From Branchiostoma floridae (lineage: Eukaryota > Chordata > Leptocardii > Amphioxiformes > Branchiostomatidae): a stretch of DNA of 64,000 bases. The translations under genes were made by a program, and so were the position numbers. Under the pieces are notes generated by a model. That model had not been told where the DNA came from. It ran no database searches and worked only from the letters and a program-made list of their open reading frames with translations. The number at the start of each line of letters is the position of its first letter. Position 1 is the first letter of the stretch. The stretch covers positions 14,130,112 to 14,194,111 of the forward strand of contig NC_049986.1 of NCBI RefSeq assembly GCF_000003815.2, written 5' to 3'. This document shows positions 546 to 49,536 of the stretch, piece after piece.

Positions 546-3500
546 TCACCGGGGATCATGGGTGGTAGACGAAGATATTTTCAGTTTAGTAACCGCGATT
601 TCATCAAAGTATTCCGTAGTTCCTCTTTCATATAGCATGTAGATGTGATCATTATCCTGTGGAAGCATCGTGAAAGTGGAGTATCCTGCCAAGTCTCCCC
701 ATATCTCTGTCCCTGAGGTCCAGGTACGGCCAAAGTCGTGACTCCATCTGATGTAAAGTTTGGACCCTGTGGGATACAAAACATTGACATACCTTGAATA
801 GATTTGTAGTCATTAGCTTGAACTCATAACTCATATGAAGAACACATAAATTAGATATAAGTTACACGATGTTACTTGAAATTTCGTAACCAGTCTGACA
901 ACACACTTTTCAATAGAATGTGAACTACTCATTAGGAAAAAGGAATACATGCCAAGCAAAGGCAAAGAATTGGATTCAATCTTTCAGACCACATAAATGA
1001 CGAACACAATACACATGATACAATAAAAGCCAATACCTTAATTAGATCTACTCGTATTCTGCTTAGCCGGTATGACTGTCCTTTGGCGTAACACACTAGT
1101 TTCACAGAAAAAAATGTGCGGCAGCACCTGATTATATTTCACCGAATGACCTATCACACGTAGTTCATTATATCACCGCATACTAGATACCACTTTGTAT
1201 ATGTACGCAATATATTTTCACTGTTTATTCCGACGAAGAAGAGAGGCACTCACGTTTCAACCTAGTGTTCGGTCCCGAGTAGAACATGGTTCCGTTGTGA
1301 AGCCACACGCCTGACGTGATCCTGGGTTCAATGAGTGTTCTGTCCAGGAGCATGTACTGTCGCGGAAGTGTTTCTCCGCCGTCAAAGCTGCGCATGATCA
1401 TCTTGCAGTTACATTTGTAGACCATCTGATTCCGGACCACTATGTGTACAGATCCATCAGGAAACTCAACCGGCTGTGCAGGGTGGAAACAACGGTAGAA
1501 GCTAACCTTATCATTATGGACGAATGCCTGGCACATTTATATTTGAAGACAATTTCAAGGATGTGGCGATATTTGAGATTTTATGCCTGCTACTTCTTTT
1601 TGTCTTTTTGGTGTGCGTGAGGTCCATATCAAAATGCCTTATTGCTTGATAGGTGATAATTGTTATTCTAAATTAGCATAAGACATTGACACAGAAAGTT
1701 CTCATCGTCTTTGAACCATATTTTCTTTCCTTGCTTTTCTTTTCTTTTCTTTACTTATTTTGTCATCCCAACATACCTGGCATTCATCTGGGTCGAAGTG
1801 TCCCTTTTGAATGTTAAGGAACGGCACACTCGGTACGAAGGCCCCATGTCTCCACGTCACACCGTGGTCATCACTCAGCAGCAGCACCAAACCTTTCCCG
1901 TCATGGAAACCGTGCCCGCACACAATCAGCCTTCCTTTGGCTGGGTCGTGCTTTTTCTAAAACGAAATGTCCTTGTTAACGTTGAATATAAGGCATTACT
2001 CCCCCCCCCCCGTATCATCAATTTTGTCTTATTTTGCAAATAAGTACATAGCCTAGAAACGTAGAGGTAGACCTCACATTACTCTTCACTGCTGCAACTT
2101 GTAAATGGAATCGAACATTATGTCTGTGTGTTGCAACTTCAAGTAGCACTATGATATAGGACTACGATGATCATATAGCTATAAGTATTACCTGAATACC
2201 GTATCCTGGGCTTGGATGTGTGGCGTGCTCTTTTCCTACTTGGTCGGTAATATTTCTCGGCCGGCCCCACGTGATGCCGTCATCCGTACTGTTCATCAGC
2301 ATCAATGATCTCGTAGGGCAGAACTCACAGAACACGTACATCAGGAAGATGGTAGCTGTTGTGTCGTCAACGAAAATAGTTCCTATGTAGGAGCATCTTT
2401 TGAAACGCGACATTCCGTCGTCCACAATCCACTGTGACGGGGACCACGTCGCACCTTAAAAGAGATAACGCTTATTAAAAACGAATATTAAAAATACAAC
2501 CATACACTGTATTGTTGGTCACGCTAACGTTCTAATTACATGTAGATATAAGCCCTTCCTGAAGGTAAAAAATCATTTGGCAACACTGACACTAATACAA
2601 ACACCAAAGAGCGACATGTTTTAGTTACCTCCATCCGTTGATCTTTTCACGGCAAAGACCTTTGGATTCTCGTCACTTTTCGACTTTCTTCTTCCTTCCG
2701 TTATAGCTACCAGGTTCCCTTTGGGAGTGTAGGTGAGAACAGGGACCCGGAAGATTCCAACCTCACCCCGCCTATGGCTCGTCCACAGTACAATGTCATG
2801 TACCACACTGAGAGAAACACCAGCCTATAGACAACATCTTTCCTTTACGTTATTGTCATAACAAATCATCTGCGTGTATATTAGATTGAAAACTAACGCT
2901 TTGTATGAACCATTTATGCTNNNNNNNNNNNNNNNNNNNNNNNNNNNNNNNNNNNNNNNNNNNNNNNNNNNNNNNNNNNNNNNNNNNNNNNNNNNNNNNN
3001 NNNNNNNNNNNNNNNNNNNNGCCTTTCACTTCATAGCATGGTTAGATTAGCTGTGCTTCTAAAGACCCCAGACAAGGATTCTTAGTAACAACACAGATGA
3101 AATCAGACGACACACGCACAACTATTTTAATAATGTCCTCAGCTCGTTATCGTGCGACAATCGTACGACGAATGTGACCATACCCTTTCAAAGCCAGATG
3201 AAATTAGTAACAAATCAATGCTTACGTTTGATGACCTGGGAGATCTTTGTACTGAAGACCCCTGAGCTGTTTGTGCGTCATTATGGAGATCCTGTGGAGC
3301 AAAAGACGATGAATAACTACGTATATACACCGATCACAATAAACACCCACACAGTGTATTCTACCAGTCGTAGCTATCCTTTATCTTTAAGACCAGCAGG
3401 TTCGTATTCTTTAATCTCTTACTACCAAAGATAATAGTATCCACTGCTTTTCTGTGTGATACACGTATGTAAGGCATATGAATGCTACGTCGATGTTAAA

Positions 3501-3764
3501 AACGCACATTTGTATTCCTATGGCTGTAGCGACGGTAACTGTAGATGTAGATTGTAAACTGTTAAATGTAGATTACAGCAAAACAATTACAGACCTCGTG
3601 AAATCAAGTAGTGTGAAGCTTACCATTTGACGTTTAGTGAGCGTTGAGTAAGAGACCCGGGAGTACAGCAGCCGTCCTGTCATGAGAACCATGATGACCA
3701 GGAGAACACGGAGCACAACTCTCAGCCACTTCAGCATGGCGCTGGCCTGCTTGATGTCCGTCAT
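546..3764 (-). CDS. Sialidase A: NEU1-like exo-alpha-sialidase, type II membrane form
   Basis: Seven coding exons are read on the minus strand: 3624-3764, 3226-3291, 2629-2824, 2192-2454, 1777-1956, 1254-1473 and 546-766. They total 1287 nt (428 aa), with GT-AG ends and phases 0,0,1,0,0,1. Exon 1 gives a short basic N-terminus and one hydrophobic segment (about residues 14-32), predicted signal anchor. Exon 2 is a 22-residue Ser/Gln-rich stalk. The catalytic domain has [10 protein letters not shown] (FRIP arginine), EGRRKSKSD (candidate acid/base Asp), Asp boxes STDGGATW (across intron 3), [24 protein letters not shown] and SHDFGRTW, then FPDGS, YIRWS and LYERG. The family removes terminal sialic acid from glycoconjugates. 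This is the only minus-strand member of the anchored class. A 100-N gap lies in intron 2. The start was chosen at the Met matching the MTD start of B-D; an in-frame Met lies further upstream. Confidence 0.88.
2921..3020. other. Assembly gap (100 N)
   Basis: Exactly 100 N, the usual size for a gap of unknown length. It falls in intron 2 of sialidase A and does not interrupt a predicted exon. Confidence 0.98.
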
Positions 3765-5427: not shown

Positions 5428-5435
5428 TATAAAAG
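5428..5435 (+). promoter_or_regulatory. Candidate TATA box of sialidase B
   Basis: TATAAAAG within a block (acataTAAAAGcgtcttta type) conserved upstream of C. It lies about 280 bp before the ATG. A likely splice acceptor (TCATCATCCAG) just before exon 1 suggests a non-coding 5' exon between the two. The assignment is inference from position and conservation. Confidence 0.35.
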
Positions 5436-5490
5436 CGTCTTTATTCTTATAATCCTAATCCAATCCTAATCACGGTCCATGACCCTATCT

Positions 5491-5604
5491 CTAATCTCCA
5501 AACACGTATAAAGATCTGGTTCACTCTCGGTGGTTTGGATGTACTGGATGTGGTAAACTCACTGAATCTGGGCAGAATCATTACATCTGCTTGGAGATTA
5601 GTCA
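5491..5604. repeat. Short inverted-repeat element upstream of B
   Basis: It opens with TCTAATCTCCAAACACG and closes with CATCTGCTTGGAGATTAG, so the ends are inverted copies of TAATCTCCAAGCAGATG. Equivalent copies lie upstream of C (about 9818-9990) and D (about 14070-14255), carried along by the tandem duplication. Related ends occur in stand-alone foldback elements elsewhere in the window. Confidence 0.5.
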
Positions 5605-5714: not shown

Positions 5715-8700
5715 ATGACTGACCACAACAACACAAGAACCATGCCGAGGGTGCTGAGGCTGCTACGGAATGTTCTCCTGATCGCCATCGTCCTCACGGC
5801 AGGCTGGATGGCAAACAGATACTACATTGTAGACTTTACTGTAAGTGTAGCTTTGATATGACTTATTACATGCACCACACTATGGTTATTTGAATTATCA
5901 GGAACCCTCGACTGCTTCATCCAGTGGAAAGACGTATTCAACGTATCGATCATACTTAATTTGATACTCATATGAATTATGAGGAAATCTATATTGGACC
6001 CTCACTCTTGAATAATTACTCTTGAATAATTTTACTCTTAAAGAACGAGTGTGGTAAAGACCACAGATTGTAAAGTTCCTGTTTTTGACTTTGTGAACGA
6101 CAGTAACTGGGAAGACACCATTGATCGTATCAATTATTAAGATGATGGGTGTAGTAGTGATCCAATTTATTTGTTCTTCAGAACCTTCGCCAGAACGCCT
6201 ACTCATTTGAGGGTTCTTCAGTGCAAAGATATCCTCATTCATCACAAGTAAGCATACATGCAGGTATCATTGACAAACAATTCTAATTGTACAGTTCCGG
6301 CATTAATTTTCTAGATTAAAAAAACACAACAAACTAGTTGGCTATTAGAAAACTGTCCTGATGCCATTTTCTGTACTTCGAGTGCTTGTCATCACGCCAG
6401 GCTTCTGTCTGCGAGAGAAAGGGAGAAATATCGAACATGTACTATTGATGCTACATGCTAATACAACAGTATGTACTATTGATGCTACAGGCCAGTGTCT
6501 CTCTCAGTGTGGTACATGATGTCGTACTGTGGACGAGAAGAACAGGAGAAATCCCAATATACCGGATTCCAGTTCTCACCTACACCCCGAGAGGACATCT
6601 TGTAGCTATAGTAGAGGGAAGAAAGGAAGCACCAAGAGACTCAAGTTCAAAGGTCTTTGCTGTGAAAAGATCAACGGATGAAGGTAACAATCAAATATTG
6701 GCTTTAATGTGTATTGATGTTATTTGGTGGAGCTTTGATTCTTCAGAAATTTTCCAACTGAACGTACTGTCCCCTCTAACAGGAGTTCGTTATTCGATAC
6801 AAAATTCTATCGTTCATCTAAGCTCATTTGAAGCATGCGACGGGAGCTACAAGTAAGTTCTTAACAGGAACATTGCCATGTATCTTTCTTGAAAAGGTGC
6901 AACCTGGTCTTCCTCTGAGCAGTGGATAATGGATGACGGAAAGCCACCGACAGATGTATACTCCAACTTGGGAACTGTTTTCGTTGATGACACAAAAGCA
7001 ATTATTTTCCTGATGTACGTATCGTTTGGAATTTGCCCTACGAGATCAGTGATGTTGGTGAACAGTACGGATGACGGCATTACGTGGAGTAGACCGAGAA
7101 ATATTACCGACCAAGTAGGGAAAGACTACGCCACTCATCCCAGCCCAGGGTACGGTATTAAGGTAAGGGGCGTTAATCTCGCTATCAAACTTTGGGATGG
7201 AAATAAAGCTTAAAACTTGCATATCATGTCTCGAGAGAATCATGGGTCATATGATTGTGTTTTAGTATAAAACATTCTTTTTAGAGAAAGAAGGATACAA
7301 TGATAGTGCTTATTTATCTTCAGAAAGAGCACGAGCCAGCCAAAGGAAGGCTGGTTGTGTGCGGACACGGATACAATGACGGTGTGGGGATAGTGCTGCT
7401 GCTGAGTGATGACCACGGTGTGACGTGGAGACATGGGGCCTTCGTACAGGGTATACCGTTCCACAACAACACAGACGGAGACTTTGCTCCAGCTGAATGC
7501 CAGGTAAGCCGAGAAAACGTAACCGATATAGGTGCATTGAAAAGGTTCCTATGAAAAGTAAGAATATTTAGTCGATCAAAAAATATACAGATGTAACTAC
7601 AATATTTCAGATACAGATTTTATTTCCAATGACAAGTCTATGAATAAAATCGCAATCTCCAGAATTGCTTACATGGTATATTAAGCATTTGCAATTAGTT
7701 TCAGGTACATACATATCAAAGCAATAACAAGCATTCTCACACATGACGAAGCAAACTCAGTCAACACTATTGCAATCACGTTACAGCCCGTTTCAAGGTG
7801 CGATACTGATTTGTATAGAGTATCATTTCTTTGTTTGAATTTTTCAATCTGAATGATCAGACTCTCTTTTACGCTTTAGCCGGTGGAACTACCAGATGGA
7901 AGCTTGTATCTAGTTGTACGCAATCAGCATCAGTACAAGTACCACTGTAAGATGACCATGCGGAGCTTCGATGGAGGAGAAACGCTGCCACGGAGGTACA
8001 TGTTTTTGGACAGGTCGCTCGTGGAGCCAAAGATCTCGTCCGGATTGTGGTACCACAACGGAACCATGTTCTACTCTGGGCCGAAAAGTGAAACAGAACG
8101 TGGGTATTGTCACTGTTAATATACAAACCGCATGTCTAGTGAGGTATGGTGACATCACTCAAAAGCTCTGTTAGTGGAAGGGTGGACGGTTTAGCAATTG
8201 TGAGCTTGTATATGTGAAAGAGCGTACTATACGGTGCAACGTTTCTGAGAGATGGTCTAATCATATATATACTTACCGTCAGGTACTGGCTTTACCCGAC
8301 ATGGTCCCTACTTTTCATGATTATTTTCTTGGAATGTATTGACATCAAATAGTGTTGTTAGACTTGTGACATTAGGTTAAACCTCTTATGCAACATTTTC
8401 ACCCACCGACATTTAAATGGCAATGCCGATTACAATTATGCACATGACTAAACACGGTCTTTAGGTTTCAAGTACTGATTGATCTAAGGATTGTCCACGT
8501 TTCTTGTGCTACAGGTCGGAGATTGTGCATCAGATGGAGTCACGACTACGGAAACACTTGGACCTCAGGGACAGAGATATGGGGGGACTTGGCAGGATAC
8601 TCCACACTCATGATGCTTCCTCACGATACAAACCATCTCTATATACTGTATGAAAGAGGAGTAAGAAAGTATTATGATCAAGTCGCGTTTACAAAAATCA

Positions 8701-8735
8701 AACTATCAATGGAGAAGGGTCGTAATACCTTATGA
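5715..8735 (+). CDS. Sialidase B: NEU1-like exo-alpha-sialidase, type II membrane form
   Basis: Seven exons: 5715-5840, 6182-6247, 6491-6683, 6897-7162, 7324-7503, 7880-8099, 8515-8735; 1272 nt, 423 aa. Met is the first codon of MTDHNNTRT, followed by a basic stretch and a hydrophobic segment (about residues 15-32), predicted signal anchor. The 22-residue exon 2 is a stalk. The catalytic part shows YRIPVLTYTP, VEGRKEAPRD, a first Asp box split by intron 3, [35 protein letters not shown] and LYILYERG. Sequons NST and NIT lie in exon 4. It is the first of three head-to-tail copies (B, C, D). The exon 1 donor is unusual: the site matching C and D reads GTAGAC, while GTAAGT 12 nt later is a better donor and also phase 0, so the stalk may be four residues longer. 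Predicted to remove terminal sialic acid on the lumenal or outer face of a membrane. Confidence 0.9.
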
Positions 8736-10103
8736 GAATAAGGAGAGGGAGGATGCTTCCCGTAGTAGTTAGATCAAAATGGACTTCGAAAACAGAATTT
8801 GGCGGGAACACAGATGACGTCATTCAACACAAACAGTTCATTGGTCTACAACAGTGACAGCTTTGGGAACTCGTCCTACCAGTTTGTTCGTTCATGTTGG
8901 ATTGGAGGTTAAAAGTCATCAACATTATGTCCCCATTAGGGGAGAATTAGTGGGCACATGTAAACACAGTTAAATGCATATCTTAGCATTGATTCTTCAT
9001 GAAATGCTGATATGTCGAAGTTATAAAAGACAGTGGTACATGAGTACTAGACATGCTGAATGCACAACATTTTTCAATGTTCATGAATACACGAGGCATG
9101 GGACTTCTGAATGTCCTTTAAGTACAAAAGCTTTGTGGTCATTCAGAGTAACGGACTAAACAAAAAACGCTTGAGAAATAACAAGTTCATTTGACCTTTA
9201 CTTGCATTGACGACTGGCATTCACAGAGAGTAAAAAATAAAGAAATCAAAAGATATTTTCATAACAGGGTATGCTAAGGTATGGTAAGGTGCTGTTAATT
9301 ATCTTGTAGACCAAGACGATCAAGTTCGAAAAGCTCACTCTTAACTCTCGGTCGATTTATGGGCATAAGCAGGTCACTCCAGGTCAAAACTGGTAAACTC
9401 AGACGCCTTGCCCGCGGCAATGTATGGATTCAAAATGGCGATCCTAGATACCTAATGCCATCCAACAACCCAGACATTGTACCATGAAAGACCAACTCTC
9501 ATTATGCTTATCTGGCCGAGTGTTGGCGACCAAGAGACATTAACTGGGTCACTTAGAAGAGGAACAAACGACCAAATGTCATCCAAAAGGTGTTAAGGGG
9601 ACAAGTACGTTTCGTATATTATGTGACTTTTGTAGGTTGCTTGTATTTGTTATGGTGACGTTCAGTCACAGGCAGCTGTCCTGAATGTCACATATAAAAG
9701 CATCTTTACTTTATACTCATTATCCGACCCTAATCACTCAAACTTCTGAGGGTTCAGAACCTTCGTAACTCCAGTAACTCAAATGTTCATATGAAGAAAT
9801 ACGTGTCCTTGACCCCGTCTCTAATCTCCAAACACATATGATAATCCGGTTCACAGTCAGTGGTTTGCATGTGTTTTTGAGGTACATCCAGCTGGTGGTG
9901 ACCTCGAGAGGTAGTGACGTACATGTAGCGTGTTGGATGTTGTAAAAACACTGAGACTGAGCCGGCGCCTTACATCTGCTTGCAGACTAGTCATCCTGAG
10001 AACGATAGGCCTCGACTGTTTGTGAATAAACCTTAAAGTACGGTATTTGTTTCATCATCCAGGTAAGTACATTTGTAAATGCAAGGACGCTCAAAGACTC
10101 TCC
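8736..10103. other. Intergenic B to C, part of the 4.3 kb tandem unit
   Basis: It contains the 3' flank shared by B, C and D (about 8756-8930), the duplicated segment at about 9380-9600, a TATA-like site, and the inverted-repeat block at about 9818-9990. No coding exon is visible. The sequence just before exon 1 of C matches that before B, including the possible 5' UTR splice acceptor. Confidence 0.6.
9693..9700 (+). promoter_or_regulatory. Candidate TATA box of sialidase C
   Basis: TATAAAAG in the block homologous to that upstream of B, with matching flanks (GTCACATATAAAAGC). It lies about 400 bp before the ATG; the extra distance is consistent with a spliced 5' UTR. Confidence 0.35.
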
Positions 10104-12944
10104 ATGACTGACCACAGCAGTACAAGAACCAGGGTGCTGAGGCTGCTACGGAATGTTCTCCTGATCGCCATAGTCCTCACGGCATGCTGGATGGCAAACA
10201 GAACACTCACCGATTATCAAATGGTAAACTTCACTGAAACAGTAACTGTTATGGTAACTGCCATATGACTAAGCAGTGCTAAGTTAGCACCGTGCTTTGA
10301 TTATTTGAATCACAGGAACTGTTCATTGCTTCAGCCAGTGGAAACATGTGTTGGACGAGAATGTATCTATCATTTATTTAATTCGATACTCATATGAATA
10401 AATGCTTGGGTGTACATATAGTATATCGGTCACTTATACCGGTTTATGTATGGCAGAGACCACAGATTGCGAAGTTCCTGTTTTTGACTACGTTAAAGAA
10501 GTCATGTATCATACTGATGTTTAAGATGACAGGTGCAGTAGTGTACAGATACTGTAGTGATCCAACTTATTCATTTTTCAGAGCCTTCGCCATAACGCCA
10601 ACTCCGCCGAAGGCTCTTCAGCACAAAGAAATTCCAATTTATCACAAGTGAGCATTCACGTAATTACCCTCTCCTTACAAACATGTGTAAAAGAACAATT
10701 CCGACAGATCGACTCTAGAAAAAACGATCAACTGTTAGCGAACTGTCCTGATGATTTTGTGTTTTTCTATGCTTGTAGTACTGGTCAAATTTGTTTCTTG
10801 GAAGGGACAATAATCCGACATGTTTTACTACTGGTGCCACAGATTGGTGTCTCCCTTAGTGTGGTACATGATGTCGTACTGTGGACGAGAAGAACAGGAG
10901 AAATCCCAGTATACCGGATTCCTGTACTCACTTACACCCCAAGAGGACATCTTGTAGCTATAGTAGAGGGGAGAAAGGAATCATGGAGAGACTCAAGTTC
11001 AAAGGTCTTTTCCGTGAAAAGATCAACGGATGAAGGTAACAAGCAAATAGTAATTCTGGCTTTAGTGTGTAGTGACAATTTTATTTGGTGGAGCTTTGAT
11101 TCTTCAGAAATTTACCAACTGAACGTACTTTCCCCTCTAACTGAAACTCGTTATTCGATACAAAATTCTAAGCTCATTTTAAACATGCGACGAGATTTAC
11201 ATGTGAGTTCTTAACTGGAACATTGCCATGTATCTTTCTTGAAAAGGTGCAACCTGGTCCTCCTCCGAGCAGTGGATAATGGACGACGGAAAGCCACCGA
11301 CAGATGTATACTCCAACTTGGGAACTGTTTTGGTTGATGACACAAAAGCAATTATTTTCCTGATGTACATATCCTTTGGAATTCGCCCTATGAGATCACT
11401 GATGTTGATGAACAGTACGGATGACGGCATCACGTGGGGCAGGCCGAGAAATATTACCGACCAAGTAGGGAAACGCTACGTTACACATCCAAGTCCCGGA
11501 CACGGCATTCAGGTAAGAAGCTTTGCTATCTTAGGCATCAAACTTTAAAGTAAAAAAAAAAAACTACAACTGAATATCCTATTTAAATGTATTATGGGTC
11601 ATATGATGCTATTTGAGTACGAAACCTTTCTTATTATCAGTGATAATGCTGCATTTATCTTCAGAAAAAGCACGACCCAGCCAAAGGACGGCTGATTGTG
11701 TGCGGGCACGGTTTCCATGACGGTAAAGGTTTGGTGCTGCTGCTGAGTGATGACCACGGTGTGACGTGGAGACATGGGGCCTTCGTGCCGAGTGTACCGT
11801 ACCAAAACAACTTAGACGGAGACTTTAATCCAGCTGAATGCCAGGTAAGCCGAGAAAACTTAACATATAACGTGTGTGTGTATGTGTGTGTGTGTAAGAT
11901 ATACATATAAGTGCCTTAATGTACACGTACGTGTAAAAACATTCCCACACATGACGATGCAAACTCAATCAACACTTTTACAATCACGTTACTGGTCCGA
12001 GAACAACCCGCTTTAAGGTGCAAGACAGTCTTGTATAGAATATTTGTTTCTTTGTTTGAATTTTTCAGCCTGAATGATCAGACTCTCTTTTACATTCTAG
12101 CCGGTGGAACTACCAGATGGAAGCTTGTATCTAGTTGTGCGCAATCAGCATCAGTACAAGTACCACTGTAAGATGACCATGCGGAGCTTCGATGGAGGAG
12201 AAACGCTGCCAGAGAGGTTCATTTTCCTGGACAGGTCTCTCGTGGAGCCGAGGATCTCGTCTGGATGGTGGTACCACAACGGAACCATGTTCTACTCCGG
12301 ACCGAAGAGTGAAACAGGACGTGGGTATTGTCGCTTTCTATACACCGCATGTCTAGTCAGATACGACGACATCACTCAAAAACATCACTGTTAGTGCAAT
12401 GGTAGAATGTTTACCAATTGTGAGCTTTCATACATGTGAAAGAGCGTACTATGGTGCAATGTTTCTGAGCCTGAGATGGTCTAATCATACTTACCGTCAG
12501 GCGCTAGCTTTACCCGGCATGGTCAACACTGATTATTTTAGTTTAATGCATTGACATGAAATAGTGTTGTTAGACTTGTGCCATTGGGCCCAACTTTCTT
12601 ATCATATTATATCCAACATTTTCATCTGCCGATTACATCTATGCACATGACTAAACACGGTCTTGAAGATACAAGTACTGATTGATCTAAGGATTGTCCA
12701 CGTACGCGTTTCTTGTGCTTCAGGACGGAGAATGTACATCAGATGGAGTCACGACTGTGGCCGTAATTGGACCTCAGGGGCAGAGATATGGGGGAACTTG
12801 GCAGGATACTCCACACTCACTATGCTTCCGCATGATAGAAATCACCTCTATATACTGTATGAAAGAGGAATAACAAAGTATTTTGATCAAGTCACGTTTA
12901 CAAAAATCAAAATATCCATGGAGAAGTGTCGTAATGCCGAATGA
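10104..12944 (+). CDS. Sialidase C: NEU1-like exo-alpha-sialidase, type II membrane form
   Basis: Seven exons: 10104-10223, 10582-10647, 10843-11035, 11247-11512, 11665-11844, 12101-12320, 12724-12944; 1266 nt, 421 aa. Exon 1 starts MTDHSSTRT and gives a signal anchor (about residues 13-30); exon 2 is the stalk. Catalytic features: YRIPVLTYTP, VEGRKESWRD, Asp box 1 across intron 3 (STDEGATW), [23 protein letters not shown] with [24 protein letters not shown] (Thr of the last box replaced by Asn) and LYILYERG. It is the middle copy of the B-C-D array, and all splice sites sit at the same places. Exon 5 is nearly identical at DNA level to exon 5 of the more distant genes A and G, which suggests conversion between copies. 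Confidence 0.9.
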
Positions 12945-14369
12945 ATTACAACGCGGATACTCCCCGTAGTAGTTAGATTCAAAATGTAATTCGAAAACAG
13001 AATTTAGCGGGAACACAGATGACGTCATCCAACACAACCAGTTCATCGGTCTACAACAGTGACAGATTGGGGAACTCGTCCTACAAGTTTGTTTGTTTAT
13101 GTTGGATTGGAGGTTAAAGGTCATCAACATTATGTCCCCATGATGGGAGAATTAGTGGGCTACACACATGTAAACACTGTTGCACACGTATCTTACTATT
13201 GATTCTTTATCAAATGCAGATAGGTCGACGTTATAGAAGCCAGTGGTCATGAGTACTAGACATGTTGAGTGCACAACATTTTTCAACGTTCATGAATGCA
13301 CGAGGCATGGGACTTCTGCATGTCCTTTGAGTACACTTAAGGAAATCTTTGTGGTCATTCAGATTACAGTACTATTCCAGAAACGTTTGAGAAAGAACAA
13401 GTTCATTTCACCTTTACCTGTATCAGCACGCAGAAAAAAATAAAAATGTATTTTCATCACAGTATATATTAGGCTATAGATATTTGCGCTATGTGTTTTT
13501 TTTTTCGTTTTATTAACATTAAAATAAAGGGTATGGTAAGGTGGCAATTAATATTGTGGAGGAAGACGATCAAGATCAAAAAGCAATTTCTTAACTCTCG
13601 GTCGATTTATGGGCATAAGCGGGGCACTCGAGGTCAAAACTGGTAAACTCAGACGCCTTGCCCGCGGTAATGTATGGATTCAAAATGGCGAACCTAGATA
13701 CCTAATGCCACCCAACAACCTCGACATCGTACAATGCAGGACCAACTCATTGTGATTATCCTGCCAAGTGTTGGCGACCAAGAGACATTAACTGGGTCAC
13801 GTAGAAGAGGAACAAACAGTCAAACGTCACACAAAAGGTATTAAAGGGACAAGTACGTTTCGTTTTTGTTGTGACCTTCGAGTAGGTTGGTTGTATTTGT
13901 TATGGTGTTCAGTCACAGGTAGCTGTCCTGAATGCCACATACAAAAGCGTCTTTACCTTAAATACATAATCCAACCCTAGTCACTCAAACGTCTGAAGGT
14001 TCAAAACCCTCGGAACTCAAGTAACCCAAGTGACTCAAATGATCATATGAAGAAATACGTGTCCATGACCTCGTCTCTAATCTCCAAACAGGTATAAGGG
14101 TCCGGTTCACTCTCACGGTGGTTTGCATGTATTTTGCGGTACATCTTTCTAGTGATGACCTAGGGAGATAATGAAGTACATGTAGAAACTGGCGTACTGG
14201 ATTGGATAAAACACTGAGACTGAGCAGGAGCCTTACATCTGCTTGGAGATTTAGTCATCCTGTTAGCATAGGCTATTTGTGAATAAACCTTAAAACAATT
14301 ATGATATTTCTTTCATCATCTAGGTAACGTTAAATATATTTGTAGATGCGAAGACGTGCCAGACTCTCC
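12945..14369. other. Intergenic C to D, part of the 4.3 kb tandem unit
   Basis: Homologous to the B-C interval. It holds the common 3' flank (about 12955-13130), the third copy of the duplicated segment (about 13630-13840) and the inverted-repeat block (about 14070-14255). No coding exon is visible. Confidence 0.6.
13940..13947 (+). promoter_or_regulatory. Degenerate TATA position upstream of sialidase D
   Basis: This position aligns with the TATAAAAG of B and C but reads TACAAAAG. If the B and C sites are real TATA boxes, D has a weakened core promoter. Position and conservation are the only evidence. Confidence 0.3.
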
Positions 14370-35125: not shown

Positions 35126-35156
<31 letters not shown>

Positions 35157-35164
35157 ATGTGTGT

Positions 35165-35225
<61 letters not shown>

Positions 35226-37321
35226 TGTGTTCATGCAGTAGGTCTATTGTATGCTCTGCGTATGACGTACCCACAGTATGATGGGGTGAAGTCTATCATC
35301 TCTGAATGCCTTATTTAGTGTATGTCTATACAAGTTTCCTTACAGTTTCCATCCATTCCATTTCACAGCCGGTGGAACTGCCAGATGGAAGCTTGTACCT
35401 AGTTGTGCGCAATCAGCATCAGTACAAGTGTCACTGCAAGATGATCATGCGGAGTTTCGATGGCGGGGAAACATTACCACGAGACCACATGTTCCTGGAC
35501 ATGGCACTCGTCGAGCCGAGGATCACGTCTGGGGTGTGGTATCACAACGGAGTTCTGTTCTACTCGGGACCCAACAGGCCACTAGCACGTAGGTGCACTT
35601 TCACATGCTCTCTGTGTTGGCTATTTAATTGCATAGAACGTGCATGCTGTTTAATATTTAAAAAACATGCCACGAGTAAAACATTTTGTCCTACCATCCT
35701 ATGGCTCAAGACATTCAAGCTCTTACGCACATCGGAGAGCGAGGAAATGACAATATTATTTATTTCTAGACCTTACGTTTGCAACGTATTTCAAGCTAGT
35801 GGTAAAATACGAGGGTAAGTCAGAATGTAATGCAAGTGGTTTCATAACAGACTCGTTCTTTAATCAATTAAGTTGAGATTTGGCTCAAAAGTAGAGGTAT
35901 GTGTCCTCTTGAGATTGAATGATTTAAATTTGGTCTCCATCATTTTCTGAGCAACTGAGTTGATTTCAAGATGAACACACCCTTAGTAGCTTGTCAGACT
36001 ATCAATTCCTCTAAATCTGACCCATTGAAAATCCCTGTAGGAGGTTGAAATTATACATGTATGATACCAAATGTCTCTATAGGTTGCGTGCTAATTTTCA
36101 TCCCTAAACTCAAATTGGTTCTTTATTTACAGCTGCTAGGATGCAGTAAGTTGTGTTATAGAGCTGTTGGATTCATACACGAATTCGTGAGTTGTTGGTT
36201 AAAAGACTACTTTTCCATCAACCAAAAGAAATGAAACTTTACAAACATATTAACTGTTTAAAGGCAAAATAGTGTGCTTAGTTTCATTTCTCGTTGTTAA
36301 TGGGAAAGAAGGCTACAGAAAGTTTTAATCATAATACCGCAGATCTCATGACCCTGAAGACCGTGTATACCTCACTCTACACCAGCAACGAAAAAAGAAA
36401 AACTGCTCGGATTATAGAGTTGAAATTAAGCATGTGGCTTATAGAGAAATGCAGCTTATTACATGTGCAGGCTTAGTCTCCTACAATAGCAAAAACTGGT
36501 TTAGGGAAATTCTTAAGTGTACGTTAATTGGACCTCTCTTTTCTTCTGACCGGATACTAAGGGTGTGGTCACCTTGAAAGCAGCTCAGTCACTCATAAAA
36601 TAATGAGCAACAAATTTAGATATTTCAATCTCAAGAGGAGATATGTATTAACCTTTGTGCCAAATTTCAACTCATTCAATCAAAGAACGACTCTGTTATG
36701 AAACCACTTGCATTACTTTCTGACTCACCCTCGTATATCAATGGTTGATGTACTATGTCATATTAGCTTATATAGAAGATGGACTGATATTATGTTGACT
36801 TTTTCGAACATGAGTATGGAATGGTTATTGTAGATATATGTGTATGTGTATGTACTATTAAGAAGGAAAGACCTCTGACTTCCTCCATCCCTAAGTCTTG
36901 AAAAACGGCTTTGTCCGAAGACGTATCAAGCTTGAATAAAGGTCGAAAAAATAGTTAGACAGTATTTACTTGTGCATCTATTATGTTTTAGCAATCGTAC
37001 ATGATACTGAATACTGCCCTGCTTTTTCACTCTACAGGAGAGGATTTGTACCTCCGCTGGAGCCACAACCACGGCCACACGTGGACTAAAGGCTTGCGGA
37101 TTTGGGACGATCTTGCTGGGTACTCAGTTATTACAATGGTTCCGAATGATCATGAACATCTCTACATGATCTACGAAAGAGGAACAGTGAAATACTTCGA
37201 CGAAATTGCGCTCGTTAAACTGAAATTTTCTGTGACGATAAAAAATGATACCTCATTACGTGTGGACGTCAACCCACAGAAACTGAGTTACCCAGGAACT
37301 CCAAATTTGAAGTGGAATTAG
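32280..37321 (+). CDS. Sialidase G: NEU1-like, membrane-anchored, with one frameshift in exon 2
   Basis: Six exons: 32280-32480, 32760-32935, 33204-33466, 33807-33992, 35369-35588, 37038-37321; 1330 nt. Exon 1 (MLRLLHRSK...) combines anchor (about residues 13-28) and stalk. Exon 2 has [10 protein letters not shown] and ITEGRRR in one frame and [12 protein letters not shown] in another. It is 176 nt where 3n+1 is required, so one extra base lies between about 32868 and 32890 and, as assembled, a stop follows. Remaining exons are open: [47 protein letters not shown] and LYMIYERG. The C-terminus is about 20 residues longer than in B-D. Introns 5 and 6 each contain a DNA-transposon-like insertion. 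The break may be a sequencing error, an allele or early pseudogenisation; everything else looks functional. Confidence 0.82.
34148..34504. mobile_element. PIF/Harbinger-like MITE in intron 5 of G
   Basis: 357 bp with terminal inverted repeats of about 33 bp starting GGCCACACCAATTTAATTTC and ending in the complement GGTGTGGCC. Both sides carry TTA directly against the ends, a 3-bp target duplication of the TWA type used by PIF/Harbinger elements. There is no coding capacity, so it is non-autonomous. Confidence 0.75.
35123..35222. repeat. (GT)n microsatellite
   Basis: Long GT run preceded by interspersed GTAT units, in intron 5 of G. It creates artificial Cys/Val and Thr/His open frames on the two strands. 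Confidence 0.95.
35810..36733. mobile_element. Mariner-like foldback element in intron 6 of G
   Basis: 924 bp flanked by TA on both sides. The ends are inverted repeats of about 195 bp (35810-36003 and 36540-36733), starting CGAGGGTAAGTCAGAATG on the left and the diverged complement on the right. CGAGGG termini with a TA target are typical of mariner-type elements. The internal 0.5 kb encodes no recognisable transposase. Confidence 0.78.
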
Positions 37322-37326
37322 AGGAA

Positions 37327-41476: not shown

Positions 41477-41890
41477 TGGTTCTACAGCAAGCACTATCTC
41501 GTGTGTGGACTTCATCCCTACCTTACGTGAAGTGGTGCTATTGCAAGCAAGCGCTATCTCCTGTGCTTTGTCCCTCTCCTGCGCTGTAGCAACCGCTTTG
41601 TCCTGTGTGGGCTTGTCTCTCCCCTTCAGTTGCACTATAGCAAGCACTATCTCCTTTGTGAATGTTAGCTCTCAGTTAAAGGTTTACTATAGCCAGCCAT
41701 ATCCCCTGCGTGTATGTTATCTCGATCTCCCATACAGCCATACAGGTGTGCAATATATTCAGTGCTATATCTTGAATGTGCAGCGTCTTCTATATATAGC
41801 TACGCTATAGCCAGTGCTATCTCCTCCGTAGATGGTCTCTCCCCTACAATTGCACTACAGCCAGCGCTATCTCCTCCGTGGACGATTTCT
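41477..41890. repeat. 50-bp minisatellite derived from the last exon of sialidase H
   Basis: About eight imperfect units of 50-52 bp start near 41477, 41530, 41580, 41631, 41683, 41750, 41801 and 41851. Common core: CTATAGCCAGCGCTATCTCC followed by a GTGGAC/GTAGAT and CTCTCCCCT segment. The rightmost unit is the coding end of gene H, where the complement encodes GE(K/R)xSTEEIALA. The array therefore grew outward from the end of the gene. Confidence 0.75.
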
Positions 41891-44788
41891 CCCCTCTCTC
41901 GTACAGTATGTACAGGTGCGTTCTGTCCTGAGGTAACATGGTCATGGTGGAGTACCCTGCTTCCTTCCCCACACACGTAATGAACCGTCCCACGATGTGC
42001 CGTTACTGTAGCTCCACCGTAACGTCATCTTCTCACCTGCAACATTTACAGGGTTATCTGACCAATTCTATTAGCAACTTTAATCTTTTGCTTACACTTA
42101 ACACTAGTAGTGATGGGGTTACATTTGTTTCAATTCAAAATGATAATTTTCCTCTCATATTTATCAGTTTTACGAACAGTTTACCAGGGTCTGTTGTCTA
42201 AGATTTATCTTCATCGGCTTTCAATTACTATATATTGTTGTCATACTTTGTTTGCAAAGACGAAATATGTACAAATCCGATTTCACAACGTCAGTTCACC
42301 TGTCATATGTTATAGAATGTGTACATTGATATTGTTGTCAATCGTCTTGTTTAACACCTGTGTTTCGTTTGTGACCTGTGAATTGTCGACACCTCAAATG
42401 TATGTTGGCTGCGCATGCCTTTTTGATGCTATTGAATAAAAATACTCCTTAATATATTACATGTATCAGTAGAAAGGATGCCTGGCGGTTGAAAGAAACG
42501 TGGTCCGTACTCACGGTGTGTTTTACTGTCCGGCCCTGTGTAGTACATGACGCCGTGGCTATACCACAGTCCTGACGCAATGCGCGGTTCGATCAGGGTG
42601 TCGTCGAAGTACATGGTACGGTAGGACAGGGTCTCCCCGCCATCGTAACTACGCATGACCATCTTACAGTGGCAGCGATAGCGTCCATGGTTACGGAGGA
42701 TGACGTGGATGGTTCCGTCCGGGAGTTCTACAGGCTGTGTGGAGGAAGAGATAAGGTTTATCTCCAGGGACCAGGAAGAAGAGACAGAAACACACGGGAA
42801 AGTCAAGATGACAGGAATTAGCAAAATGCACCGTAATGTTTACACTCCACCCACGATACTTTTGAGAACTATTTTTTTGTGACTTGTAAAATGACAACAA
42901 GTGGTATGAATTTCATATCAAAAATATGATATCCAAGCAGAAATTGGGCGGAAACCGTGATGTTCTCGAGCTTTTTCGACGTCAGGCTTTCAAAGCGCTT
43001 TTTAAGCTAACATAGAACATCCCTATGCATTCTCCCAACATCTACTTGGAGATTAGACGTTCATAGTACAACTAACCTGGCATTCATCAGGATGGAACTC
43101 TGAGTCATGTGCGTGGAAAGGAATGGCCGACACGAAAGCCCCGCCCCTCCACGTGACGCCATGGTCGTCGCTTAGCAACAGTAGCGACCCCGCCCCTCCC
43201 GGCATTCCGTGCCCGCAAACGACCAATCTGCCTTTTGCCGGACCAACTTTTTTCTGCATTGACGTTTGAAAATATTTCTTTTTTAGCGGTTAGCAATTCA
43301 TCAAGTGAAATCGAACAAGGTGACACCTGTTATGCAAGTTTCAACCATTCTTTAGTATCTGTGGAGAAAAATCATTTTGACACATTGCACTCCTGCTTTG
43401 TTTGAACGCAGGTTCATCTTCAGATAAAAACAATGTTTAAAAAATGGAATCGAAGTCCCTCTACAGTACCTCGACAAGCCAGTAGGCGGCCCTAAATCTA
43501 CCTACATGTCTACATGCTAAATATCAACACCTTTACATTCTCGAGTTATCGAGTCCACAGACACACACCGAAAAAAGCACAAGCTTGTGGCAAAGGTGAA
43601 AAAACACAATCTCCTACCTGAATACCGAAGCCAGGGCTGGGATGTGTGACCATGTCCGACCCTACCAATGACGTAATGTTCCTGGGTTCGCCCCAGGTCT
43701 GTCCATCATCCGTGCTGTTGATCAGGAGCAGAGACCTTTGTTTACAGTTCTCACAGTACACGAACATGACGAAGATGGTGGCGGTTACGTTATCCACGAT
43801 GACGCTGCCCACGTTCAGACCGACATGCCCCTCGCCATCATCAACAACAAAGGCAGTAGGGGACCAAGACAAGCCTGGAAGAAACAAATTCCGTTTGTAA
43901 AAAGAATGGCGGGTTTTGATTACAAGATGCAGAGAGGCAGGTGAGTTTTGGACCATACGTGTGTATGCATCGTAGTTTTTTGTGATAAATCAAAGCGGTA
44001 CAAACCTAACGTTAAATGAAAATCGGTAACTTTCCAGATTAAAACAAAAAAAAGCAATTTGCTTGCTTTTCGACTCTTTTTCCCTATGGCAAGTGTACAC
44101 TGAAATTACAGAATGGCCAAACGATGATGTAACTCTTTATTGTGCCTACATCTCATTTACCTTTCTAATTCTATACAGGATTTTACATCTCTTCCTCTAC
44201 ATACATGTACCGCAACTCTTAAAATGTTTCTTGGTTTTCAAAAACAAGCTTTTTTACCTTACCTTTGTCTGTAGACCTTCTGACGGCAATGAACTTGGGC
44301 CCCATATCGGCGGAGGCATACTTCCTGGCTCCATTGAGGGCTAAGAGGTTCCCCTGGGGGGTGTAGGTGAGGAGGGGGGTCCGGTATAGGTGCACCTCCC
44401 CCTCCCTACCGCTCCTCCACAGCACCGTTTGGTTCACTACCTTTGGGGATACCTATTGAGTACCAATCAATCAACCAATCAATCAATCAACCTATTTAGC
44501 AGTATATTCATTAACCTGTCAATCTACTGTGATATCTACACAAGAATATTTGCATGGCTAGCGGCGTAGGAAATAGGGGAATGATACTGGTATCCGAGAA
44601 CTGCTACTGGCCCGTAAAAATGATCGTCCACATGTAAACAGTGCCCACTGTCTTGGAACAATAACTTGACACAAACACGTAATTGCTCTACTAGATACTC
44701 GCCGAAAAACAAGGACTTTCCTCACCTTGGGGGACACTGCCTGCAATGTGAGCAGCAGAACAGCCAGGACGGAAGTCATGAACCACAT
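41844..44788 (-). CDS. Sialidase H: secreted/lysosomal NEU1-like with a frameshift in the last exon
   Basis: Six exons on the minus strand: 44726-44788, 44263-44452, 43618-43874, 43077-43253, 42515-42734, 41844-42036; 1100 nt. Exon 1 encodes a 21-residue hydrophobic signal peptide (MWFMTSVLAVLLLTLQAVSP), with no anchor or stalk. Motifs: YRTPLLTYTP (Ile of FRIP replaced by Thr), NGARKYASAD (Glu of xEGRK lost), [47 protein letters not shown] and LYILYERG. The last exon is 193 nt where 3n+2 is required: one base is missing near 41962-41975, between RVWG and AGYST, so the assembled frame stops early. It lacks the C-terminal YxxL of gene I. Two acceptors 12 nt apart begin exon 2. Divergently paired with I. 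Confidence 0.8.
42931..43054. repeat. Foldback element, TCTCCAAG-ended family, in intron 5 of H
   Basis: Left end ATCCAAGCAGAAATTGGGCG; right end AACATCTACTTGGAGATTA is roughly its complement. About 124 bp, low coding potential. Confidence 0.5.
43440..43620. repeat. Fragment of the interspersed repeat seen at 19680 and 25000
   Basis: Contains a GCCAGTAGGCGGCCCTAAAT block, CTACCTACATG, TTCTCGAGTTAT and CACAGACACACACC in the same order as the 25000-25320 copy. It lies in intron 3 of H and reaches the splice donor of the neighbouring exon. Confidence 0.5.
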
Positions 44789-45139
44789 CCTGGACGTCTC
44801 CGGGCCGAGGTTTCATTCATAGTGTACTGGGATGAACTGGCACCGAGCGGTCGTCCTTTGTTGTGACGTATTACTCATTGTTCGGTTGGAATGTTCCACA
44901 TTATTGATAAAACTGTAATCCAAGAAGTAAAAACAGCTATCATTCTAGGCCATCTCATGGTATTTGGTGGATTCGAAAGATTGTGTTTTGGTAAAAGCAG
45001 AGAGAGACAACATGAGTATACGAGAAATACAGCAACTTCGTCACACTGCTGGCACCTTTTTGTAAGTGCAGTGAACCAGCCTTAATCCACCTGCCCCACC
45101 TGTCAAAGGTGAAAGGTTAGGTTAGTTTATTTTGACGAG
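44789..45139. promoter_or_regulatory. Shared divergent promoter region of H and I
   Basis: H and I are head to head with 351 bp between their start codons, so both core promoters and any 5' UTRs lie here. A TGTGACGTATTAC site resembles an ATF/CREB half-site. I do not see the GTCACGTGAC-type lysosomal (CLEAR) motif. No TATA box is clear for either gene. Confidence 0.5.
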
Positions 45140-48100
45140 ATGGCACGCTCTGTCGCATTGTCCACTGTCTTCGTCTTTGCGTCGCTAACGTGTGCGATCC
45201 TGCGGGTGGAATGCCAACCCAAGGTAGGTTTACCAACTAAGTTCAAATATCTAAACCATGTAAACGTTTTCTGTTTAACTTTGGTCTTCCCCAAGGCAAC
45301 ATGTCTGTTCTTTCATTGTGTCCTTATAACACCGACGCCCTGACGGCCTTCAGATTTCTCGCACTAAATGCTACGTTACACACCATTTCAAGGGCTTTAC
45401 ACAAGAGCAGGTCTTTTTAAATTTGATCATTATCCTTCACAGAGTGTTGTGTCAAAGACCATTGATCGAAGTATTCCCTCAGTCAGAGTACTTCAGTTAT
45501 AGCCTGGTACAACAACATGCTAAGTTTATTCCCACAGAAGGTTGTTGAAAACGAGTTTTGTGGGAATAAACGTAGCGGAGATAATCCCTGTGTACACCTT
45601 TATCACCCACTATCATATACAGGCAAACGTACGTAGTATTGCTTACAAAAACCAAAAGACACACGTCAATTTGATTAAAACTTTCACGATCTTACTCGTC
45701 TTCTTCACATATTTTTATCAATCAAATATTCTGTGTAGTATGAATTGGGACAAAACATTAGGATTGGATTGTGCCCTGTACCTTGTTACTTGTTCCCTTT
45801 ATATGGATTGGCTAAGTCTATTATAGGTAAAATTGACAACAATTACGGGTTGACTATATTTGCCGGCGATAGAAATACAGTCCTGACCTGCATGACCTAG
45901 ATACAACAATCTTATCGTCATGCAACACCGGCAAAAAGGACATAGGAAAACAAACCGGACAAACAGACTCATGACACTAAAGCATTAAAATAACCCAGTG
46001 TGCAATGGGTGTTTTATATACCATTACGCTGAATGGCGGTTATGCCAACTGTATGACGTTTTTAGATACAGACACAAATGACCAAGTTGCAAACCTAGGT
46101 TCCGTCTTTAGACATTTGGTATGAGATAACTTTGTGATATAGTGACTTTCACTCCTTCTGTCATTGAATTCCCCTCCTTTCTCGACCTGTATGCCGATTT
46201 GATGATTTTGCCCCCTGATGCAGGTTAACCCGCTGGTTGTGCAGCAGGAGCTGCTGTGGGAGTCCAAGCAGTACACCTACCGTATCCCTGTCATCGCGCA
46301 GACGCCAGGGAGCGCTCTTATCGCTATTGCCGAGGGACGGAAGTACAACTCAGGAGATACTGGGTCAAAAGTTGTCGAAATCAGGCGATCAACAGACCTT
46401 GGTATAATGAAATAGCACGATTCTTGTTACTAGTACTTCACTCTTACAGAAAGTATTTTCTGAATTCACACTGATCTTTGAATTAGGTTTTAGGCATCTA
46501 ACTGTTTTTCTTTCATAGCATTCTCCATTTAGATACCATTGATCATGAATGCTCTCCAAGTTGTTGGTTTATTTCCTTGTATGTCTTTTAATCTACAATG
46601 AAAAAGATGACAAATCTGAGAACTTCGAAACTTTTTGAAGTAACCCACCGAATCGTTCAATCGTTCTGGTGTCACCTGTAGGCTCCGTGTGGTCTCCTGC
46701 TGTCACACTCCTGACTGACGGACAATTCAAACTAGGCGTGAATCTGGGCTCGGTCATCGTCGATAACGTCACGGGGGTCATCTTCCTGTGGTTCGAGCAC
46801 TGTTTGGAGTCACAGCATTATTGTGAAAGGTACAGTACTTAATAACACACACAGCTAAGGACTGGTAAAAAGTTGATGTCTTTCGTAGAAAAACTAGAGA
46901 AAGTCAAAGCATGCTAGCATTGACGTTCAACGTTCAACCTCTCAGGGATTAAGGTTCAGTTAGGCGTCACATTTCCAAACCGGGGCCCGACCGGGCTGTT
47001 TGTGGAAACGAAAAATAGAAATGTTTACGTAGAAATAAACGAATAATGCCCACGAGTCACGATTATTCTCTTTACGTCTTGTGTAGTTTGGTGTCTTTTG
47101 TATCATAGTTTTCGTTCCCGAAAGCCGCGACGGTCGGGCTCCGGTTTGGAAATGTGACGTAAGCCTACGCATGACGGAGCCTAGCATTTCATCTACGATT
47201 CATTCATCCATTCAAAAATTGCCTTGTTCAAGTTATTGCCTCAAATACTATTTCCTTTCCATTATTATTTGCCACCAGGTCAGCGCCCTACCTAATGAAC
47301 AGCACGGATGACGGGTTGACGTGGAACAAGCCGCGGAACATGACCGGTGTGGTCGGCGGCGCCACTAAGTTTGTCACGGGGCCAGGACTAGGTATACAGG
47401 TGAGCCTCAAATCTCGATGCACTTTTATTGTCCCTATTGTACGTCCTCAGGGTGTTATGCGAATGTTGGAGCAGTATTGTTGGACTATTTTCTCTAACTA
47501 AACGTTATTTTTCGCTGTACGTAAACAAAACCACTGGCGTAAGAACTACCGTTAGGTCTAGGGCTGAAACTTTGATTTAATTACTCTCCTACTAAAACCT
47601 GAAATAAAGGCTTTTCCGACACTCCCCAGTACCTAACATAATATCCTGTACCTTGGAGATTAAAGCTATAAACTGACTATCCCTCTGTCTACTTTGAGTT
47701 TTACAGAAGAAGCTACCTCCCTACAAAGGCCGTCTGATCACGTGCGGGCACGGAGACCACCTGTCCGACGGCGTGTTCTGTGTGGTGAGTGACGACAGCG
47801 GCACCACGTGGCGCATGGCGGGGAGTGTGAAGAGCATACCGTTCGGCAGGAAAAAAGTAGACGGAGACTTTAACCCAAATGAAAGCCAGGTCAGCTAAGA
47901 TGCCTTCATTTCTTGTCTGTTCTAAAACACTGCATGAATTATTAATATTACGTTACAATTACGTGGCTTCGCGTCGCGTAACGGTAGGGTATTGGCTCAA
48001 AGCCCAAAGGTCCTGGGTTAAAGTTCCCTGATATGTTCCGACGTTGTGCACATGGGAAAGGTGCTTTTCAAGAATCCCATCCCATCACCCTCAGGTAAAA

Positions 48101-49536
48101 ATTAGTAACCCGTGCAGGGACGTCGCTCGTATAAGACGTCAAATAGAGGTCCCCTGTTTGGGGAAGGCCAAACCTCGAGCACGTAAAATAACCCACCACA
48201 CTTGTCGAATGTCATAGACGAGACAAGATGGACAACAACCTTTTTAGTCTGTTAGTCACGACATTGAAGCTTATTGCTGGAATACTCATTAGATCGCAAG
48301 TATCCATCATGACAAATCCGAAACAAACCGGCATCCAGAGAATTTCAGATCGGAATGTATGTTTATCTATTTGTATGTTTATTTGTTTATCTCTGTCATA
48401 GCTAGTAGAACTCCCAGACGGGTCCCTGATGGTGAACATGCGCAATCAGCTGCACTACCACTGCCGCTGCCGCGTGGTCATGCGCAGTAGGGATGGAGGG
48501 GAGACCTTCCCGCTGGACGACCTCTACATGGACGACACCCTGGTGGACTCAGGCGTCCACGCCAGCATGCTGTATCACAGAGGCGTGCTGTTCTTCGCAA
48601 ATCCAGCAAGCTCAACCAAACGTAAGGCCGACGAATGTTCTGATGATACAGTCAAACATTTCTACACTGACCAGGGCTCTAGCCAGCGTCCTTTTTTTTC
48701 TCGTTAATTTCAAAATTTGCTGAGTGTGACAGTCACTGTCACTGTCAGTGACCCCTCTAGGGACATCTTACAACCTGTTATACTTGGGTCAGTCGGAAAA
48801 ATAGTCTAAGGGGGCCATAGAAAGGTGGTCAGAATGCCTATGGCTATGTTGTCTTTATTCAGATGTTTGACAGTATGAATCTGAGTGTAAAATCTGATAT
48901 GATATGATACTAGTTTATTTGTATATGCTGCATGCGTTTCTTTTGAGCGTCGAAACTTAGTCGTCTATGGTGAGACGCGCCCCCTATCCGTGGATAGAAG
49001 TATTGTCGAAGCATCGCTGATCATTGCTTACCGCCCAAAGCAAGTACAGTAGAAGCCAGTTAATTGCACAGCGGATTAACGCAAACTTTTCTGTTAACTG
49101 CACGGAATCCCAAAATCCCAAACCGGTGCGGTACAGCTGGATAACTTCGCATAATTGCACCACGAAATACGCTGGCGAATAGGCTGTGCAAAAAAAAAAA
49201 CGGCCTCTACTGTACATGCAGTGATGCAAAATTTACCTTGCGTTCAAATGTTGTCTTTTCTTACTCTTATGCCTTTGTTCCACTGACGCCTTTAAGACGT
49301 ATGTATGTACTTTCATCTTCTTTTCAGGTGAAGATTTCAAACTCCGCTGGAGCCTTAATAACGGGACGACGTGGCCTGGGCTGAAGACGCTGTGGACCGA
49401 GTCTGCTGGGTACTCCTGCATGACCGTACACGACTCGGTAGACGGCGCTTTTCTATTAATCTTGTACGAGAAAGGAAGGTCAAGTGAATATCAGTGGATT
49501 GAGATGATGAAACTCAGTATCTATGGTGACCTTTGA
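45140..49536 (+). CDS. NEU1: Sialidase I: probable lysosomal NEU1 orthologue
   Basis: Seven exons: 45140-45223, 46224-46401, 46682-46829, 47279-47399, 47707-47889, 48402-48621, 49328-49536; 1143 nt, 380 aa. Exon 1 encodes a signal peptide (MARSVALSTVFVFASLTCAI) with a cleavage region near VEC. Motifs: YRIPVIAQTP, AEGRKYNSGD, first Asp box STDLG|GSVW, STDDGLTW, SDDSGTTW, CGHG, FNPNESQ, VELPDGS, NMRNQ, CHCRCRV, LRWSLNNGTTW and LYEKG. The protein ends SIYGDL, matching the C-terminal YGTL lysosomal sorting signal of mammalian NEU1. One extra phase-2 intron splits the exon that is single in all other copies. The family cleaves sialic acid from glycoproteins and glycolipids in lysosomes, where mammalian NEU1 works with cathepsin A. 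Confidence 0.88.
45519..45580. repeat. Hairpin in intron 1 of I
   Basis: CTAAGTTTATTCCCACA and TGTGGGAATAAACGTAG form inverted arms about 17 bp long around a 25-base loop. Probably a degraded miniature element. Confidence 0.55.
46961..47167. mobile_element. MITE in the extra intron of gene I
   Basis: 207 bp with inverted ends of about 30 bp: left TAGGCGTCACATTTCCAAAC, right the complement with a 3-base difference (TAGGCTTACGTCACATTTCC when read inward). The arms continue with CCGG(G/A)GCCCGACCG. It lies between exons 46682-46829 and 47279-47399, the intron found only in gene I. Confidence 0.75.
47963..48215 (+). mobile_element. Diverged SINE-like copy in intron 5 of I
   Basis: Opens with a tRNA-like segment (GCGTAACGGTAGGGTATTGG ... 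CCTGGGTTAAAGTTCC). It then follows the body order of the SINE at 30235-30645: a GGAAAGGTGCTTTTC block, CGTCAAATAGAGGTCCCC and CACGTAAAATAACCCACCAC. Older and more diverged than that copy. Confidence 0.6.
49044..49215. repeat. Inverted-repeat element in intron 6 of I
   Basis: 172 bp, starting GTACAGTAGAAGCC and ending GGCCTCTACTGTAC, the complement with one mismatch. Internal sequence has paired TTAATTGCAC/TAATTGCAC blocks. Non-coding. Confidence 0.65.

Follow-up and report, generated by a model that had tools for sequence, protein, structure and literature searches.

Does an array of NEU1-type sialidase genes in the amphioxus Branchiostoma floridae encode further copies of a lysosomal enzyme, or a branch of the family that has been sent to another place? 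The window analysed here is the 64,000-nucleotide stretch NC_049986.1 (contig label C8):14130112-14194111, and the genome searched is the 513.4-Mb assembly of 431 contigs. We found nine NEU1-type genes, A-I, at window positions 546-49536, of which A-G lack the C-terminal YGxL end of NEU1 and carry a changed first exon. Our preferred reading, to which we give a probability of about 0.5, is that these genes arose through an expansion of NEU1 with loss of YGxL and a change of exon 1, and that their products would be active exo-sialidases of the secretory pathway, with A-D anchored as type II membrane proteins.

The genes were located by exon searches and splice modelling, and the final junctions were set by homology among the copies; for A, C, D, E and H these junctions replaced the joins of an automatic splice search, which were discarded. 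The nine genes run from 546, where the stop codon of minus-strand gene A ends, to the stop of I (49536). The genes are given below by window position, with coding exons in order of transcription.

Gene A, 546..3764, minus strand: exons 3624-3764, 2629-2824, 2192-2454, 1777-1956, 1254-1473, 546-766; 406 amino acids, basic tail and hydrophobic segment, without YGxL.
Gene B, 5715..8735, plus strand: exons 5715-5840, 6491-6683, 6897-7162, 7324-7503, 7880-8099, 8515-8735; 401 amino acids.
Gene C, 10104..12944, plus strand: exons 10104-10223, 10843-11035, 11247-11512, 11665-11844, 12101-12320, 12724-12944; 399 amino acids.
Gene D, 14370..17264, plus strand: exons 14370-14495, 15075-15267, 15514-15779, 15919-16098, 16285-16504, 17044-17264; 401 amino acids.
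Gene E, 18704..23899, plus strand: exons 18704-18829, 19191-19533, 22097-22359, 22546-22728, 23053-23275, 23682-23899; 451 amino acids.
Gene F, 26232..31029, plus strand: exons 26232-26351, 27638-27860, 28269-28531, 28652-28831, 29296-29515, 30821-31029; 404 amino acids.
Gene G, 32280..37321, plus strand: exons 32280-32480, 32760-32934, 33204-33466, 33807-33992, 35369-35588, 37038-37321; 442 amino acids.
Gene H, 41942..44788, minus strand: exons 44726-44788, 44263-44440, 43618-43874, 43077-43253, 42515-42734, 41942-42036; signal-peptide-type exon 1, exon 6 frameshifted, off-frame homology to ~41847.
Gene I, 45140..49536, plus strand: exons 45140-45223, 46224-46401, 46682-46829, 47279-47399, 47707-47889, 48402-48621, 49328-49536; 380 amino acids, signal-peptide-type exon 1, ends in YGDL.

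Eight of the nine models (A-G and I) are intact and encode 380-451 amino acids. H is broken in this assembly: five exons can be read, and the last, exon 6, shifts frame after SLRVWG, ahead of the catalytic Tyr. Just past the off-frame stop of H, at window ~41800-41900 on the minus strand, a stretch of ~35 bases is repeated with changes. A-H have six coding exons with intron phases 0,1,0,0,1, and I has seven, with one additional phase-2 intron. A preliminary description of this DNA had placed nine sialidase genes in these 49 kb, which is where we found them, H being frameshifted; the single intron-phase pattern that it gave them holds for eight genes but not for I. The end of exon 1 is uncertain in B, exon 1 of C has a second possible donor, and an upstream in-frame ATG would add 9 residues in A and 8 in D.

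The array is part of a larger set. Six-frame genome searches with D and I as queries, followed by grouping of the exon matches, gave at least 16 NEU1-like loci (locus counts are lower bounds), nine in the window and seven, J-P, outside it. With L and M, which are 5.6-13.7 kb to the left of where the window starts, there are 11 genes in ~63 kb. On the same contig, N and O lie ~180 kb right of I, and J and K ~1.15 Mb left of L; P lies on another contig, C7. Exon 3 is split by an extra intron in I, J and K (window 46830-47278; L005 3077-3451; L006 4388-4757) and in none of the other genes. Exon 4 is doubled in tandem in N and O (L004 2633-3044 and 7285-7688), with a stop in one N copy, and the doubled exons are possibly alternative exons. 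Human NEU2 as a query matched none of the 16 loci at E up to 1; it gave three weak exon matches only, at C19:7843820-7849890 (L009, L010), which are possibly the amphioxus NEU5 gene of PMC3431349. That paper (2012) reported five copies of NEU1 and a single NEU5 for B. floridae, so multi-copy NEU1 in this species is already published, and what is added here is the gene cluster and a derived clade. The copies of 2012 resemble ours in being NEU1-type, multi-copy and from amphioxus and differ in number (five there, 16 loci here), and the two sets very likely overlap. The parts of PMC3431349 examined mention neither a gene cluster nor an N-terminal change.

Family membership was assigned from structure matches, profile scores and trees. 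The best solved-structure match is mouse NEU1 (8du5; GH33), with 286.7 bits for A and 321.9 bits for I, and because these values far exceed those of the best Sialidase-2 chain (only 42.4 and 36.5 bits), chance resemblance is excluded. PF13088 (BNR_2) was above cut-off in all three proteins scanned (D 88.0, I 99.2 and G 93.0 bits). Core identity to mouse NEU1 is 41-44% in A-G (A 42, B 43, C 42, D 44, E 41, F 42, G 43), 42% in P, 49% in the readable part of H, 47% in I, 55% in J, 52% in K, 42% in L, 40% in M, 53% in N and 49% in O. The highest values are thus those of J, K and N, and the genes most like NEU1 sit outside the window. From the 64 NEU1-specific positions in Table 3 of PMC3431349 we dropped 13 that disagreed with the mouse row at the numbering used and kept 51. 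A-G match 21-24 of 50 aligned diagnostic residues, I matches 24 and J 35, compared to 8 of 45 in a bacterial sialidase and 3 of 48 in human NEU2, for which the alignment is imperfect (the R280 column reads L).

We built three trees, one of 17 rows (the 16 amphioxus genes and mouse NEU1), one with a bacterial outgroup added and one with both the bacterial outgroup and NEU2; NEU3, NEU4 and NEU5 lie outside the trees and the family comparison. All three trees contain a clade of A-G and P (100/100) and an 11-gene group of A-H, L, M and P (100/99). The 17-row tree has one 100/99 split between mouse NEU1, I, J, K, N and O on one side and L, M, H, A-G and P on the other, with H as sister of A-G and P (91/87). 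In the outgroup trees the remaining genes and mouse NEU1 branch off one after another with weaker support, and the branches to the outgroups are very long. The NEU1-like identity claimed by the preliminary description is supported by these comparisons, and A-G group with mouse NEU1.

For the catalytic residues we used the NEU1 numbering R78, D103, E264, R280, R341 and Y370. The columns of R78, D103, E264 and R280 are kept in all 16 amphioxus genes, as is R341 when split codons are counted (including all seven genes outside the window), and Y370 is kept in 15, the exception being H, where it is out of frame. An apparent loss of the catalytic Arg in L and M (LKW for LRW) was dropped, the true R341 being a codon split by the last intron. 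The Arg triad, the Tyr/Glu pair and the Asp are all present in A-G and I, and because these residues are conserved, A-G are likely enzymatically active. Varied substrates exist, given that in B. belcheri N-acetylneuraminic acid (Neu5Ac) and N-glycolylneuraminic acid (Neu5Gc) are tissue-specific and methylated deaminoneuraminic acid (KDN) is found on ovary O-glycans (PMC6994554).

We next consider how the N-terminus of A-G differs. The first exon is of ordinary signal-peptide type in H, I, J, K, M, N and O; for L none was found. A-G and P share another type of exon 1, in which a basic tail is followed by 11-16 uncharged residues. The preliminary description took this for a signal anchor and stalk in place of the signal peptide; exon 1 does differ from that of H and I, but a distinct stalk is not seen in B-D. 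Between the hydrophobic segment and the LW motif lie 23 residues in each of B, C and D, and more in P (27), A (31), F (37), G (46) and E (76); in six signal-peptide types the figure is 14-23, so that the stalk is real only in some copies. The net charge ahead of the segment is +3 to +5 in all eight genes (A-G and P), compared to -2 to +2 in six of the signal-peptide-type paralogs (N not included), and the charge difference across the segment favours an N-in orientation in B, C, D, F, G and P. Cleavage was scored with a matrix and with control sequences; A-D scored 4.4-5.4, below the seven signal-peptide-type paralogs (5.7-10.1) and below four cleaved controls. Furthermore, a scan for first exons in the 1.5 kb upstream and intron 1 of each gene (antisense background, 4 candidates in 22,328 bases) recovered the hydrophobic exon in 7 of 7 of A-G, with one weak extra candidate in A and one in I. 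Within those regions it found no classical signal-peptide first exon for any of A-G (0/7), and alternative first exons of this kind had been named in the preliminary description as telling against it. These data suggest that an uncleaved signal anchor is possible in A-G.

Several observations weigh against anchoring. They are in part those expected if A-G are secreted soluble sialidases whose N-terminal segment is cleaved as in human NEU1, and which leave the cell or stay in the secretory lumen. The uncharged stretch is short, and the N-terminus of human NEU1, which is considered to be a signal peptide, is alike, with a +3 tail and 18 uncharged residues. The ranges of 19-residue hydropathy in A-G and P (1.69-2.74) and in the signal-peptide types (1.55-2.61) overlap, and in A (+4) and E (+3) the charge beyond the segment gives no support to N-in. 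Cleavage scores are high in E (10.1), F (8.7) and G (12.8), with E, F, G and P together at 8.7-12.8, and by this matrix A-D look least cleavable while E, F, G and P look cleavable. The matrix was rejected as a decider, since the type II protein MGAT1 scores 10.8, like signal peptides. Secretion of soluble enzymes would also suit B-D, in which the distance to the LW motif falls inside the signal-peptide range, but not the low cleavage scores of A-D, nor a tail more basic than in the amphioxus signal-peptide-type paralogs, and we consider it rather unlikely. As to the uncleaved anchor of the preliminary description, the basic tail and the scores of A-D point to it, but the measures used fail to separate anchors from signal peptides. 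The N-terminal signal peptide of NEU1 is, according to PMC3431349, conserved only in mammals.

The missing YGxL is a clearer difference of A-G than the N-terminus, and it is a feature absent from the preliminary description. Mouse NEU1 ends in YGTL, I in YGDL, K in YGGL, N in YGNL, O in YGEL and J in YGFN, so that all five members of the other group (I, J, K, N and O) have Y-G at position -4. YGxL is absent from A-G, L, M and P and from the off-frame end of H. On the tree, the absence of YGxL amounts to a single loss and not to eleven. The YGTL-type end has been described as a lysosomal localization signal with an aromatic residue retained through Chordata (PMC3431349); unlike in that statement, the aromatic C-terminal residue is not retained in 11 of the 16 amphioxus genes. 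A-G are NEU1-type sialidases, and we do not call them lysosomal NEU1 orthologs because the C-terminal Y(-4) signal is missing.

The loss of YGxL is a fact, and its meaning is less sure. Later structural work places the supposed membrane helices of NEU1 inside the core of the protein, and how adaptors in the cytosol could then read the C-terminal end is an open question (PMC11416241). Because this work puts NEU1 off the membrane, a sorting function for YGxL in mammals is under dispute (PMC11416241). In a type II protein, the C-terminus would lie in the lumen anyway; both points count against taking the loss as a sign of re-targeting. The dispute agrees with the possibility that A-G are still lysosomal NEU1 isoforms in which YGxL is dispensable and sorting proceeds via the protective protein PPCA or glycan tags, and N-glycosylation sequons are indeed present in A-G. 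However, the other amphioxus group still has the motif, the 11-gene group has lost it en bloc, and exon 1 is also changed in A-G and P, which makes continued lysosomal sorting improbable.

B, C and D follow each other in series as copies of one repeat.

B-C-D repeat unit, 5715..17264, plus strand: ~4.3 kb including introns and spacers, with 79-84% DNA identity over longer stretches.

Synonymous divergence (dS) among B, C and D is 0.19-0.27 and their introns have diverged, while the ratio of nonsynonymous (dN) to synonymous divergence in exons 2-6 is 0.14-0.41, and so below 0.5, in all 21 pairs of A-G. It is very improbable that the array consists mostly of decaying duplicates or is inflated by assembly errors, as the frameshift in H, the closeness of B, C and D and a run of 300 Ns at ~40.0-40.3 kb of the window might indicate, given the intact models in eight of nine genes, the serial divergence of B, C and D and the low dN/dS. 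In all three B-D pairs dN is higher for exon 1 (0.09-0.22) than for exons 2-6 (0.07-0.08). A and E share 92.8% identity in exon 3 and 74-75% in exons 2, 5 and 6; A and G share 89-90% in exons 3 and 4 and 78% in exon 5. Exon 3 of A, E and G (window 2188-2466, 22115-22364 and 33190-33471) is 89-93% identical, above most other aligned exons. Because exon identities are uneven between A and E and between A and G, our data suggest gene conversion among A, E and G.

Our preferred reading can be set out as a series of steps. NEU1 would have undergone a lineage-specific tandem expansion in amphioxus, in which one branch (A-H, L, M and P) would have lost YGxL and a sub-branch (A-G and P) would have replaced the short signal peptide of ordinary type in exon 1 by a basic tail and hydrophobic segment. 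The products would enter the secretory pathway as active exo-sialidases and may act in the Golgi or at the cell surface. In A-D, and less surely in the others, the N-terminal segment might keep the enzyme in the membrane as a type II protein, and the anchored enzymes would trim sialic acid from glycoproteins and glycolipids. Of the re-targeting and expansion proposed in the preliminary description, the NEU1-type tandem expansion stands, together with the changed exon 1 and the loss of YGxL, whereas type II anchoring is something that we infer. On the microbe-facing or epithelial role that it raised, the analysis yielded no evidence in either direction. More tentatively, a lysosomal sialidase may have become a type II membrane family by losing the C-terminal motif first and gaining the anchor second, and may remodel varied sialic acids on cell surfaces, mucus or gametes.

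NEU1, whose manner of membrane hold is disputed, is a single gene in higher vertebrates, compared to many copies in amphioxus. If A-G are anchored, they would resemble viral type II neuraminidases in layout only (short tail, N-terminal anchor, propeller). The amphioxus genes resemble NEU1 in core and catalytic residues and in having mostly six coding exons, as reported for NEU1 (PMC3431349), and A-G are unlike it in their C-terminus and exon 1. Anchored A-G would also resemble vertebrate membrane-associated NEU3 and NEU4 as sialidases acting at membranes, but these belong to another subfamily; their membrane association has been described without an agreed N-terminal anchor (PMC11416241), and fish, frog and lizard have NEU3 genes in tandem clusters (PMC3431349). 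One chordate holds at least 16 NEU1-type loci, with YGxL lost on one branch and exon 1 changed on a later branch, and its paralogs are a natural set from which to learn which features decide whether a NEU1-type enzyme ends up in the lysosome, at the surface or in the medium. Should the anchors prove real, the change of a single exon would have re-targeted a degradative enzyme.

Other features lie in and around the window. Ten chosen open reading frames from 51.9-62.9 kb had no Pfam match at E up to 0.1. One further exon lies between G and H.

Last exon of a receptor-like gene, 38168-39142, minus strand: a membrane-spanning stretch plus a long tail with many tyrosine motifs (YLNL, YINL, YANL, YTSL, YRNV and YVNV).

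From its sequence this exon looks like part of a signalling receptor. The outer part of the gene was not found. For the tail, Pfam gave no match, and a genome search gave two weak matches on contig C3 (3e-4), neither of them convincing as a paralog. Large families of GFP-like proteins are a mark of amphioxus. Elsewhere in the genome, mNeonGreen, a lancelet-derived protein, gave as a query 68 exon matches with up to 88% identity on four contigs, with clusters of GFP-like genes at C4:24569428-24647496 and on other contigs.

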